Of a stretch of 33,079 bases of DNA, positions 19,212 to 22,789 are shown one piece after another. This DNA is from Anaerolineales bacterium (lineage in GTDB: Bacteria; Chloroflexota; Anaerolineae; Anaerolineales; Villigracilaceae). The notes beneath the pieces were generated by a model. The model was not told the DNA's origin. It saw only the letters and a program-made list of their open reading frames with translations, and made no database searches. Both the position numbers and the translations under genes were made by a program. The DNA lies in the NCBI GenBank assembly GCA_021462845.1, contig JAJTXU010000025.1, forward strand, positions 1 to 33,079, given 5' to 3'. How positions within the stretch are numbered: position 1 is the first letter of the stretch; the number at the start of each line of letters is the position of its first letter.

Positions 19212-19244
19212 AGGTGACAGTCACTTCAAAAGTGACTGTCACCT
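19212..19244. repeat. Perfect 15-bp palindrome directly upstream of the DsbA-like gene
   Basis: AGGTGACAGTCACTT (19212-19226), loop CAA, exact complement 19230-19244. It ends 3 bases before the GAGG ribosome-binding site of the gene starting at 19257, so in the transcript it forms a strong 5'-UTR hairpin. It could be a dispersed repeat, a regulator of translation, or both. Confidence 0.85.
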
Positions 19245-19256
19245 TTCGAGGACAAC

Positions 19257-19865
19257 ATGGATTTCAAACTAACTATCTTCTCCGATTATATCTGACCGTG
19301 GTGTTATGTCGGCCAGGGTGTGGTCGAGAGGTTGAAAGAAGAATACCAAGTGGATGTGGAATGGCGTCCATTCTATTTGTATTTCGATACGCCGCCCGAG
19401 GGACGCGATCTGCCGGAGCATATTCGTCGCGCCCGCGCCAACGGTTCGGAGGAGCGGCTCGCTTCCATCGCTGGGATGTATGGGATGCCCTTCCGTTCGA
19501 CGGATCGAGTGTACAACACGCGCCTCGCGCACGAAGCGACGGAATACGCGCGCGTGCATGGCAAAGGAAACGAGTTTCACAAAATACTTTTCCGCAAAGT
19601 GTATGCGGAGGGATGCGATCCGAGTCAATGGGATGTCCTTCGCGCCGCCGCCGAGGAAGCAGGCTTGAACGCGGACGAGATGCAGACCGACATGGAAAAT
19701 GAAAAATACACCGCCGATGTAGTGGATAAAGTGCGCTGGGCGTATCAGATCGGCGTGACGGGCGTGCCGACATACGTGATCAACGACCGTTATGCGATCG
19801 TCGGCGCTCAGCCGTATGAAGTATTCAAAGACGCGCTAACGAAGATATTGAGCGAGAAAAAATAA
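19257..19865 (+). CDS. DsbA/FrnE-type thiol oxidoreductase with in-frame TGA (probable selenoprotein)
   Basis: With TGA read through, 202 aa. ATG at 19257 has GAGG 5 bases upstream. The frame reads MDFKLTIFSDYI, TGA (19293-19295), PWCYVGQGVVERL and on without interruption to TAA. FrnE/DsbA-family proteins carry CPWCYxG here, so TGA takes exactly the place of the first, nucleophilic Cys; the second Cys is present. The rest is a full thioredoxin-like protein: helical insert (about 45-150) and GVTGVPTYVINDRYAIVGAQPY with the cis-Pro loop. A short G-looped hairpin follows the TGA at selenocysteine-insertion distance. TGA is an ordinary stop elsewhere in the window. Alternatives are a recent nonsense mutation or a sequence error; a GTG start at 19320 would lack the active site. 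Confidence 0.8.
19309..19327 (+). promoter_or_regulatory. Candidate bacterial SECIS hairpin
   Basis: TCGGCC (19309-19314) pairs with GGTCGA (19322-19327), six pairs including one G-U, around the loop AGGGTGT. The loop has G at its second position and begins 19 bases after the TGA, inside the 16-37-base range described for bacterial SECIS elements. The lower stem is weak (G-G and A-G mismatches), so this is suggestive only. Confidence 0.5.
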
Positions 19866-19997: not shown

Positions 19998-22682
19998 CTA
20001 TTTTGTTAGAAACGTTCTGTTGTTTACATATTCAACAACAGGCCTACCGACTTCCATCGTTTCATGTGTCAAATACCTATAAATTCTTCTCAAGTTAGCG
20101 TTCTTTTCCATACCGCTCAATAACACTTCCAAAACTTCTTGTGTAAGCGGTGGAACGGTTCCCGCCCCGGCTGCCTTCGCTCGAGCCAGTGAAACAGATT
20201 CTGTTACCGTCTTGATGTGTTCCCAAATTTCTTTTGTTAATTCTACAAGAGGAGCCGATTCCTCTTTAGTGGTTTTTTCTTTTTCTACCAACTTCTTGAG
20301 TTTGCCTTCACTCTCATCCGTGAATAAGCTTGCTAATTTATCCATATCGCCAACAACATCCGCGAGGGTTGAATCCGCTTTGATTGATGTCTGGGCGCTC
20401 TGCGCCGTTTCCGCCAATTTCTTGAAGGCGTCCTTCGCTGTTTGGGGAACGCTTACTGGATCGGTACTGCCATCGGCGCTGGCCTTCAGAGCGTTGATTT
20501 GATCTTCAAATGCCTTGGCGGCTGTTTCGACATCGGTCAGCGGTTGTTCGATTTTATCGAGCGAGTCCACCAAAGTTTTGACTAGCGATTTGGCGTCCGG
20601 ATCTTTTGTCGTTTCCTGGCTCAATACGCTGATGGCTGATTTCAGTTCGCTCAATTCAGAGAGTTTTTTCGATACGTCAACTTCTTTCATCTGCTCTGTA
20701 ACTTTTTGCGTTTTTTCGTCCAAACCTTTGAAACGCGCCTGAAGGGATGTGGCGGCATCCACAGCATCTTTTAGAATATCATTGCCGGCTTTCACTTTTT
20801 CCAAGGCGGTGTCCGAAAGAACTTTAGATTCCTGAACGAGGCTAACCGCAGATTCTATATCCGACTTGAAATCTTTGAGCGTTTTATCCTTGTTCTCATC
20901 TTTGGCTACGTTATCCGAAACCTGCTTAACTTTATCCTGGGTATCCTTTATTTTGAGATTGGCTCTCAATGCCGCAAGTTGCGCGGAGGAGATTGGGTCT
21001 TCCGCTTCAGACTCGCCAATGGCTTTGGCCGCGGTGACGATTCGTTTGACACCGCCTGGTTCGTGCGCAGCATCCAGCAGGTCTGTTGCGCCGCGCAATC
21101 CCAGCGTGCGGAAGGTTTTTGCATAGGATTTATCTGGTTCGGCGCCCGTCGTTAGAAACAAAATGGCTTGATCCACCCAATCCACAATTTGCGATGTTGG
21201 GAAGGGAGTCCAGACAATCAATTGCGCAATGTCACAGGTCGCCAGTCCCTGCATGCCGATAATCCCTTCCTCTTCGATGCGTTCCACATCAAATTCATCC
21301 AGATCGTCCAGTGTCGCAAGTTCGTGGCGTGGAAATAGCCGTTTGGATAGGTTAGATCCCCATTCGGCTTTCCTATCCGAGTCGATTTGTTTTATCCATT
21401 TGTCGATCCAAGCCTGAATTAAGGCTTGAGCGCCATTCACAATTATCCCAATGGTTTTCAGGGGAAAAACACCCGCCAGAATGCCCCAAAAAATGGGCCA
21501 CCAACCCGCCTCTTCTGTTCCAGTCGTTGGCAATGCCGTAACTACAAGGCCAATCAAGAAGGCCAACAACAATCGCTTGACCGCCTCCAGGAACGTGTTG
21601 GGAGTAATGTCGTATCGGCAATAACGGCGAACCATTTGATATACAACGAAGATATACGCCGTGACTACCGCGACCACCGCAGGTCCCACAGCGGCTATAA
21701 CGTCTGAGAAATAAACGTGCATACCGGTCTTGCCGCCCGTCCCAAAAATCGCCGCGCTCACGAAGCCCGCGGCGCTCGCGGGCCAAAATACCCATGCAAA
21801 GTTGATCGAGAGGAGTAACGTCAGCACGACCAGCGGAAGAACGTACTCGTACCATCCAAATCTTCCGGCAATGAGTTGCTCGTACTTATCCGCGCGCAAT
21901 GTCGATGCCTCTTGTTCTTCGCGCTTTTTTTCCGAGACTTGAAAATCCTGATATGAAGATGTTGCCAAGCCCCATTTTGATTCGGAAATCCCTTCCGGTG
22001 GGTTAGGCGCATCTTCGACTTCAGGATTCCACATCATCAGAGATTCGATCGCTCGAAAGATCGCGTCCTGTGATTTTTTTTCTTTACCATCTGATAATAT
22101 TTTTTTGATTTCTTCTCTGTTTTTTGCCAAGCGGTTGAGGCGATTAATCTCCAATTCGGCTTCGTCGGGCGTGATACCCAGCTTTATCAAATCGTTCTTA
22201 TGCTCTTTGGTTAACTTATCCGTTTGGTGAAATGCGAAACCGAAGAAAATGAAGGCGGGCAGCAGGATCAAAATACCCGCCATGGTTGCCAGAATTGCGA
22301 AGTACTGCGCCCCGGCTGATACGGCTTGATCTTTAAGACCAGAGGAATCAACTGCAGATGTTTGAACAACTGACGCAGTTTGTGTCGCTGTGGTTGTTGC
22401 GCCGGGAGTTGCCGTGAACTGGTTAGGGGTAGATGTAGGTTCTGGAGTTGCTGAGAAGTGGTAGTTAATGCTTTTCTCGGTCTGTCGCCAACCTACATCC
22501 CCCAAGAAGCCAAGCCCCACAAGGAATAAAAGCAAGAGAATTAATGCAACGACTTGCAACGAACGAGTGGTTTTCTTTCGTTTTTCATCCCATTGTTTTG
22601 CTTCATCCAGCCCGATCTCACCCCAATCCTCCCACCCCTTGGGTTCGTCATACCAACCATCTGAAGGATCTTTTGTTCCCAT
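19998..22682 (-). CDS. Large membrane protein of unknown function with long helical tail
   Basis: 894 aa from the ATG at 22682, chosen because AAAGGTGG lies 5 bases before it. Residue numbers here count from a GTG three codons earlier. TM1 about 44-64; a Thr/Pro-rich linker about 80-115 (ATPEPTSTPNQFTATPG); TM2 131-155; a charged helical region 160-270; TM3-TM6 about 282-303, 330-352, 372-390 and 395-420. Around 460-515, LDDLDEFDVERIEEEGIIGM and DIAQLIVWTPFPTSQIVDWV look like a helix-hairpin-helix-type segment I have seen in other uncharacterised membrane proteins. Residues 560-830 are Ala/Lys/Asp/Ser-rich helix with coiled-coil character. I recognise no family and propose no function. It appears to stand alone. 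Confidence 0.8.
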   Translation of the reverse strand: MGTKDPSDGWYDEPKGWEDWGEIGLDEAKQWDEKRKKTTRSLQVVALILLLLFLVGLGFLGDVGWRQTEKSINYHFSATPEPTSTPNQFTATPGATTTATQTASVVQTSAVDSSGLKDQAVSAGAQYFAILATMAGILILLPAFIFFGFAFHQTDKLTKEHKNDLIKLGITPDEAELEINRLNRLAKNREEIKKILSDGKEKKSQDAIFRAIESLMMWNPEVEDAPNPPEGISESKWGLATSSYQDFQVSEKKREEQEASTLRADKYEQLIAGRFGWYEYVLPLVVLTLLLSINFAWVFWPASAAGFVSAAIFGTGGKTGMHVYFSDVIAAVGPAVVAVVTAYIFVVYQMVRRYCRYDITPNTFLEAVKRLLLAFLIGLVVTALPTTGTEEAGWWPIFWGILAGVFPLKTIGIIVNGAQALIQAWIDKWIKQIDSDRKAEWGSNLSKRLFPRHELATLDDLDEFDVERIEEEGIIGMQGLATCDIAQLIVWTPFPTSQIVDWVDQAILFLTTGAEPDKSYAKTFRTLGLRGATDLLDAAHEPGGVKRIVTAAKAIGESEAEDPISSAQLAALRANLKIKDTQDKVKQVSDNVAKDENKDKTLKDFKSDIESAVSLVQESKVLSDTALEKVKAGNDILKDAVDAATSLQARFKGLDEKTQKVTEQMKEVDVSKKLSELSELKSAISVLSQETTKDPDAKSLVKTLVDSLDKIEQPLTDVETAAKAFEDQINALKASADGSTDPVSVPQTAKDAFKKLAETAQSAQTSIKADSTLADVVGDMDKLASLFTDESEGKLKKLVEKEKTTKEESAPLVELTKEIWEHIKTVTESVSLARAKAAGAGTVPPLTQEVLEVLLSGMEKNANLRRIYRYLTHETMEVGRPVVEYVNNRTFLTK

Positions 22683-22789
22683 GCGAGCCACCTTTGTTTG
22701 CGACGAATAGTCGGCGTTTTGAAGCGTCTATAGATACTATACAACAAATTCTGCGAATTGCAACATCCAATTTCCGTTCAACCGAACTC

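Follow-up and report, generated by a model that had tools for sequence, protein, structure and literature searches.

Structure of the locus

We analysed a stretch of 33,079 nucleotides (the window), which is contig C168 of an Anaerolineales (Chloroflexota) assembly of 4.17 Mb in 362 contigs, 94.6% complete. The coordinates of the studied gene and its elements are presented in Table 1. A single in-frame TGA is found inside the frame: 12 codons starting with the ATG are followed by the TGA, the residues PWCYVGQG and the remaining codons up to a TAA at 19863–19865, and the product has 202 residues when the TGA is read through. The preliminary description had noted an ATG with a good ribosome-binding site, and GAGGA does precede the ATG; its order of 12 codons, TGA and PWCYVG is also correct, but the 189 further codons which it placed after PWCYVG are all the codons that follow the TGA, PWCYVG included. 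Sec or Cys is found at residues 13, 16 and 120 of the protein only. The active site lies 12 residues from the start, and in most orthologues a start codon is found 12 codons before codon 13.

Table 1. Coordinates of the gene and of its elements in the window
Feature	Position	Strand	Basis
Gene of the putative Sec-containing DsbA/FrnE-type oxidoreductase	19257..19865	+	PF01323 match; FrnE is the nearest solved profile relative; 73 orthologous loci
Ribosome-binding site GAGGA	19248..19252	+	Sequence
In-frame TGA, predicted Sec13, residue 1 of UPWC	19293..19295	+	TGA in 69 and TGC in 4 of 73 orthologous loci
Trp15 of UPWC, codon TGG	19299..19301	+	Invariant across the 27 rows of alignment A1
Cys16 of UPWC, codon TGT, presumed resolving Cys	19302..19304	+	Invariant across the 27 rows of alignment A1
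SECIS-type hairpin TCGGCC(A)GGGTG(T)GGTCGA, within coding sequence	19309..19327	+	Silent-site collapse; the stem pairs more than in the synonymous null, but only in Sec rows
Pro171 of GVPT	19767..19769	+	Invariant in alignment A1

Family and predicted structure of the product

The product matches PF01323 (DSBA) over residues 5–194 with 133.8 bits (E 8e-39, cut-off 25.6), and its closest solved relative in a profile search is FrnE (2.3e-35). The predicted structure (mean pLDDT 93) has a thioredoxin fold with a helical insertion; the active site is placed where the first helix begins, residue 13 lying directly before helix 14–30. Its best PDB matches are the Deinococcus FrnE entries 5co3, 5coh, 5xwh, 5cnw and 5cp1 (E about 1e-15), followed by SCO1869 (3gl5). 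The CXXC-type active site is present as UPWC here and as CPWC in the Cys orthologues. Pro171 is presumably the cis-Pro which is expected to face the active site.

FrnE of Deinococcus radiodurans (DR_0659; PDB 5cnw, 5co3) has the same fold and is matched by profile over its full length. According to passages of PMC8945050, FrnE belongs to the DsbA family and is a thiol oxidoreductase with the active site CP(W/F)C that is predicted to be cytoplasmic. The D. radiodurans protein has Cys at the first position of this motif, whereas the Chloroflexota protein has Sec there. The C-terminal CX4C of D. radiodurans FrnE is absent from the Chloroflexota protein, so the regeneration route must differ from the one proposed for the former; according to the same passages, CX4C is also missing in the FrnE of D. 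maricopensis and S. roseofulvus and is not universal (PMC8945050).

Another thioredoxin-fold UxxC selenoprotein model is NF041057 of NCBIfam (Rcas_1661 thioredoxin-like (seleno)lipoprotein, listed as DsbG-like in PMC13188914). The studied protein is not a member, as it reaches 40.2 bits against a cut-off of 190 and matches over the C-terminal half only.

Coding constraint around the TGA

In comparisons with eight close relatives, codons 2–12 have changed only silently: 30 of the 53 summed synonymous sites differ, but none of the 211 non-synonymous ones. Codons 25–200 have a dN/dS of 0.11. Purifying selection thus acts on both flanks of the TGA, which are parts of one protein. Directly after the TGA, codons 14–24 show five synonymous changes over 58.7 summed sites and no non-synonymous ones; this low synonymous change points to an added constraint on silent sites after the TGA. 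Residues T6, S9, D10, Y11, W15 and C16 are invariant in alignment A1 (27 rows). The absence of decay claimed for the gene holds for its orthologues as well, short partial matches aside; the one exception is the locus at G131:C1:118730–119324 (L089), where the 3' part is split over two frames and the TGA and the hairpin sequence are intact. The short partial matches are G115:C89:7827–7976, G146:C92:37629–37733 and G070:C52:6417–6542 (50, 35 and 42 residues, respectively), which are possibly remnants or contig-end pieces.

Sec and Cys at codon 13 among orthologues

Of 150 genomes searched from the family to which the organism belongs, 137 contain matches. The orthologous group consists of 73 loci from 71 genomes, about 56–100% identical, and codon 13 is TGA in 69 loci and TGC in four (genomes G104, G144, G071 and G139), where the active site is CPWC. 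The wider set of 246 loci (L017–L093 and L109–L277) offers 248 places which cover codon 13, repeats included: TGA is found at 208, TGC at 32 and TGT at 8. Locus L135 starts past residue 13 and was left out of this count. Removal of identical rows left 168 unique ones across the phylum, 133 with Sec and 35 with Cys.

A quick maximum-likelihood tree was built from 160 of these 168 unique rows (127 Sec, 33 Cys), with near-copies dropped and codon 13 masked; some of its branches are long, and distant paralogues are among its rows. This tree requires a minimum of 15 changes of the Sec/Cys label (shuffled mean 30.3), counted without direction, and 12 of them are forced by starred branches. The Cys/Sec exchange which the preliminary description had proposed to look for among homologues is therefore seen, with at least 12–15 label changes on this quick tree.

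A hairpin after codon 13 is clear in two Cys genes. In L167 the TGC is followed by TTGGCCAGGGTGTGGTCGAG with 7 of 7 stem pairs, which is the clearest hairpin in a Cys row. The second DsbA-like gene of L172 has a TGT and the hairpin TAGCCTC-GGC-GAGGCTA in another register, and the same hairpin follows a TGA in its sister L173. Judged by these hairpins, both genes look like recent Sec-to-Cys changes.

Further TGA-bearing relatives were noted. A second DsbA-like gene with a U/C-VWC motif is found near the Cys FrnE copy in L172, L173 and L180; its codon is TGA in L173 and L180 and TGT in L172, and a strong hairpin is present in all three. These genes are a candidate second Sec family with a recent Sec/Cys switch. 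In the DsbA-like genes of L092 and L093 (genomes G047 and G082) the TGA is part of a UPFCRIGK motif; both genes are placed on a mostly-Cys branch of the tree. The genome of the window itself contains a second DsbA-family gene (L090:3965–4651, within G000:C224:4170–12685) with an in-frame TGA at UPWC; it is 27.5–30% identical to the first gene and matches PF01323 with 62.9 bits. Several other family genomes contain TGA-bearing matches like it.

The hairpin downstream of the TGA

The stem begins after a gap of 13 bases from the TGA, and the loop AGGGTGT starts at 19315; the 19 bases that separate it from the TGA are exactly the distance given in the preliminary description for a G-containing hairpin loop. 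Among 66 unique Sec orthologues the silent diversity of codons 17–24 is 0.077 vs 0.516 past codon 30, and no 8-codon window of the latter region falls below 0.386.

We separated RNA from protein constraint by comparing the observed 7-pair stem with 500 random synonymous recodings. The 133 unique Sec rows have on average 6.27 of 7 pairs vs 4.63 in the null (z 19.4, reached by 0 of 500 recodings), although this and the following z values overstate independence because the rows are related. The excess is found both in the 77 Sec rows of L017–L201 (6.64 vs 4.82 pairs, z 17.0, 0 of 500) and in the 56 Sec rows of L202–L277, which mostly have other amino acids there (5.77 vs 4.34, z 11.9, 0 of 500). 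In contrast, the 35 unique Cys rows have 4.17 pairs vs 4.05 (z 0.9, 116 of 500), and the 15 Cys rows of L017–L201 have 4.00 vs 3.85 (z 0.6, 161 of 500). When the partner strand is slid by one to three bases, the mean of all Sec rows falls to 1.65–3.27 pairs. Pair 19–27 is formed in several ways (CG 86, TA 14, TG 12, GT 8, GC 5 and AT 5). Neither the variety of pair types nor the difference between Sec and Cys rows depends on a single lineage.

Fewer than five of the seven named pairs are found in 17 of the 133 unique Sec rows, none of them in the orthologous group L017–L089. They belong to divergent copies, of which some form the hairpin in a shifted register. By eye, the divergent L248, L251, L254, L263, L269 and L270 seem to have a short hairpin of another kind, CTCCA-GTT-TGGAG or a variant, a little further along. 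Six or seven pairs are found in 5 of the 35 unique Cys rows. A G in the first two loop positions is present in 125 of 133 Sec rows and in 28 of 35 Cys rows; since it is common in the latter too, the G alone does not discriminate.

Single-sequence folding was considered as proof of a SECIS and set aside in favour of the recoding test, as the stability is modest or unremarkable: in the window, the hairpin region has a z of −0.78 when 59 nt are folded and of −1.71 with 40 nt, and seven relatives folded singly (three Sec, four Cys) give z −0.16 to 1.16, the Sec row L080 favouring another fold. A SECIS search had been suggested for this region, and a SECIS-type hairpin with signs of selection on the RNA is what lies there; in its sequence pattern the hairpin at 19309–19327 behaves like a bacterial SECIS.

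Sec machinery in the genomes

All four sel genes, for which a search of the rest of the genome had been proposed, are present in the assembly. The tRNA-Sec is found at C312:22055–22147 (64.5 bits; ARAGORN call tRNA-SeC(tca)), SelB on C1 (363 bits), SelA on C31 (544 bits) and SelD on C343 (351 bits). The SelD gene itself has one in-frame TGA in a CAG-U-ASK context (L108 position 1531, G000:C343), which we take to be the usual catalytic Sec/Cys position of SelD.

The tRNA-Sec is present in 130 of the 150 family genomes, including all four Cys-copy genomes, which also contain selA and selB. The presence of the machinery therefore does not track the TGA, and a correlation between the TGA and tRNA-Sec, which we considered, is uninformative. 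Among the 67 TGA-copy genomes, 58 have a tRNA-Sec match at E 1e-9; in the other nine, selA is over the cut-off in all and selB in seven, and the two without selB are those with a completeness of 78% and 71%.

Interpretation and alternative readings

We consider it highly probable that the product is a FrnE/DsbA-type thiol-disulfide oxidoreductase, presumably cytosolic, with selenocysteine as its nucleophilic residue. The apparent stop codon is almost certainly read as selenocysteine, which would put selenium into the active site of a protein-disulfide enzyme; the decoding put forward in the preliminary description is supported by the conserved TGA, the selected hairpin, the Sec machinery and the Sec/Cys exchange. 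The product is probably a disulfide oxidoreductase, predicted to be cytosolic.

Three readings without selenocysteine were weighed. Since the assembly is split into 362 contigs, of which the window is one, the TGA might be a misread TGC or TGT or, in a pseudogene, a nonsense mutation; however, 69 of the 73 orthologous loci have it too, the 71 assemblies concerned include some with one to a few contigs, and both the downstream dN/dS and the lack of non-synonymous changes in codons 2–12 among the eight relatives argue against a pseudogene, which makes this reading extremely improbable. We give hardly any credence to the TGA as an ordinary stop with a shorter, redox-dead DsbA-like protein made from a downstream start, for example GTG 19320. 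A 181-aa ORF from this GTG to 19865 is indeed present, but the amino-acid constraint on codons 2–12 and the six residues invariant in alignment A1 would be unexpected, the Cys orthologues read straight across codon 13, and the hairpin and the silent-site constraint past the TGA would be left unexplained. Reassignment of TGA to a sense codon (Trp or Gly) in the lineage would agree with the fact that TGA ends just 1 of 21 picked ORFs of the window. Against it, 18 of the 73 orthologous genes terminate in TGA, the aligned residue of the homologues is Cys and neither Trp nor Gly, the Sec machinery is complete, and the hairpin would be needless; we regard reassignment as barely conceivable.

The activity of the selenoprotein is less firmly indicated. 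The protein may act mainly as an oxidase or isomerase, as a kappa-GST-like enzyme that depends on GSH or in the detoxification of metals or metalloids, and not as a general disulfide reductase: HCCA isomerase (2imd) and kappa GST (1r4w) are among its neighbours in fold, and a passage of PMC8945050 states that cadmium upregulates Deinococcus FrnE and that the mutant is cadmium-sensitive. We consider such an activity unlikely, given that FrnE provides the best profile and structure matches and that Sec together with Cys in UxxC would favour redox exchange over isomerase chemistry.

For the selenocysteine-dependent oxidoreductase, the anatomy of the gene and the known bacterial mechanism suggest that SelB with Sec-tRNA(Sec) would bind the hairpin just 3' of the TGA and deliver Sec in place of release. 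By analogy, Sec13 would attack a substrate disulfide and Cys16 would resolve the intermediate, the UPWC motif cycling between the selenol/thiol and the selenenylsulfide forms. The net role would likely be cytosolic disulfide reduction or reshuffling, a function already put forward for Deinococcus FrnE.

Distribution across Chloroflexota

A scan of named genome contigs gave 128 relatives; among the 80 retained, 75 belong to Chloroflexota by record title and are mostly Anaerolineales/Anaerolineae MAGs. Single MAGs are labelled otherwise, as Planctomycetota (L135), Acidobacteria (L171) and Kiritimatiellae (L182); these labels may be binning errors. In 400 genomes drawn from the phylum, matches at E 1e-25 are found in 117. 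The 123 listed match rows comprise 71 with one TGA and 52 without TGA, and 91 of them were used; the 32 left out are a second copy with TGA in G008 and 31 rows without a stop. This biases the phylum set towards Sec, for which reason its Sec:Cys ratio is not quoted as a frequency. Viral contigs gave four pattern-matching stretches and no relatives. On plasmids, 766 of 72,556 records match, all with less than 60% identity; among the ten plasmid matches listed, identity is 32–35% and nine are annotated as DsbA family oxidoreductases.

We propose tentatively, and as a rather doubtful generalisation, that Sec-FrnE could be an ancient, phylum-wide Chloroflexota selenoprotein and an important client sustaining the Sec machinery in members without a selenocysteine formate dehydrogenase, and that it may have changed repeatedly from Sec to Cys in Sec-decoding genomes, leaving a 'fossil' SECIS behind TGC or TGT (clearest in L167 and the second gene of L172). 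Anaerolinea thermophila is described in part of PMC4959059 as having a Sec elongation factor without an annotated Sec dehydrogenase; Sec-FrnE would be a candidate Sec client there, if present. The Sec/Cys pairs in close relatives form a clean natural set on when selenium is worth keeping; the four Cys-copy genomes retain tRNA-Sec, selA and selB. An internal TGA would easily lead annotators to label a gene a pseudogene or truncated, and a conserved redox function might thereby go unnoticed.

Relation to described selenoproteins

COG2761 is, we assume, the FrnE group. Sec-containing DsbA-like UxxC proteins were reported under this COG in 2005 (passages of PMC1088965), DsbA-like selenoproteins were counted in 2006 and 2016 (in parts of PMC1794560 and PMC5029168), and a 2026 review lists a 'DsbA-like protein form 1, PF01323' (in a part of PMC13188914). 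The passages of PMC1088965 and PMC13188914 describe the same Pfam domain, the same UxxC motif and an in-gene SECIS just after the TGA. They bear out the belief, stated in the preliminary description, that selenoproteins of this family had been reported; since the family has been in print since 2005, its 'new selenoprotein' stands as a new member in Chloroflexota only. The sources of the reported proteins differ from ours: the UxxC reports concern Sargasso Sea metagenomes, and DsbA-like selenoproteins in general are placed in Deltaproteobacteria, Clostridia and Asgard archaea in the parts of these papers concerned. The cited DsbA-like record NIP15863.1 is probably orthologous to the Chloroflexota group.

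A part of PMC1794560 credits Chloroflexi with three selenoproteins of three families, and a DsbA-like one may be among them. In the main texts, figures and supplements aside, neither "Chloroflexi" nor "Chloroflexota" occurs in PMC13188914, PMC9312934 and PMC12013277, and "Chloroflexi" does not occur in PMC5029168. Among the open-access papers searched on selenocysteine or selenoproteins in Chloroflexota, Anaerolineae or Anaerolineales, none is on this protein by title or beginning of the abstract; the passages of the Chloroflexota papers deal with the Sec machinery and with formate dehydrogenases. Neither the breadth in Chloroflexota nor the Sec/Cys exchange record was found described in these open-access papers.

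Gene neighbourhood

In the window, the gene has an adenosine deaminase gene on one side; on the other, downstream, lies an 897-aa ORF on the minus strand (19998–22691) that has no match in Pfam. Neighbours were compared at 56 of the 73 orthologous loci (about 4 kb of flank or up to the contig end, and the window for its own gene), giving 440 neighbour ORFs. No operon partner is evident among them: the commonest neighbour family is found at 17 of 56 loci and the one which includes the adenosine deaminase gene at 12. The neighbourhood is not conserved enough to serve as the distinguishing mark that the preliminary description had seen in it and thus gives no functional clue.

Just upstream of the ribosome-binding site, the window contains a perfect palindrome of 15+15 bp at 19212–19244, AGGTGACAGTCACTT-CAA-AAGTGACTGTCACCT. 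Of the 73 orthologous loci, two (L017, the gene's own, and L027) have its 14-base arm no more than 200 bases upstream. Genome-wide the arm has 15 copies, seven close inverted pairs and one single, vs none for the reversed control; the palindrome is a dispersed REP/MITE-like element and not a conserved part of the gene.
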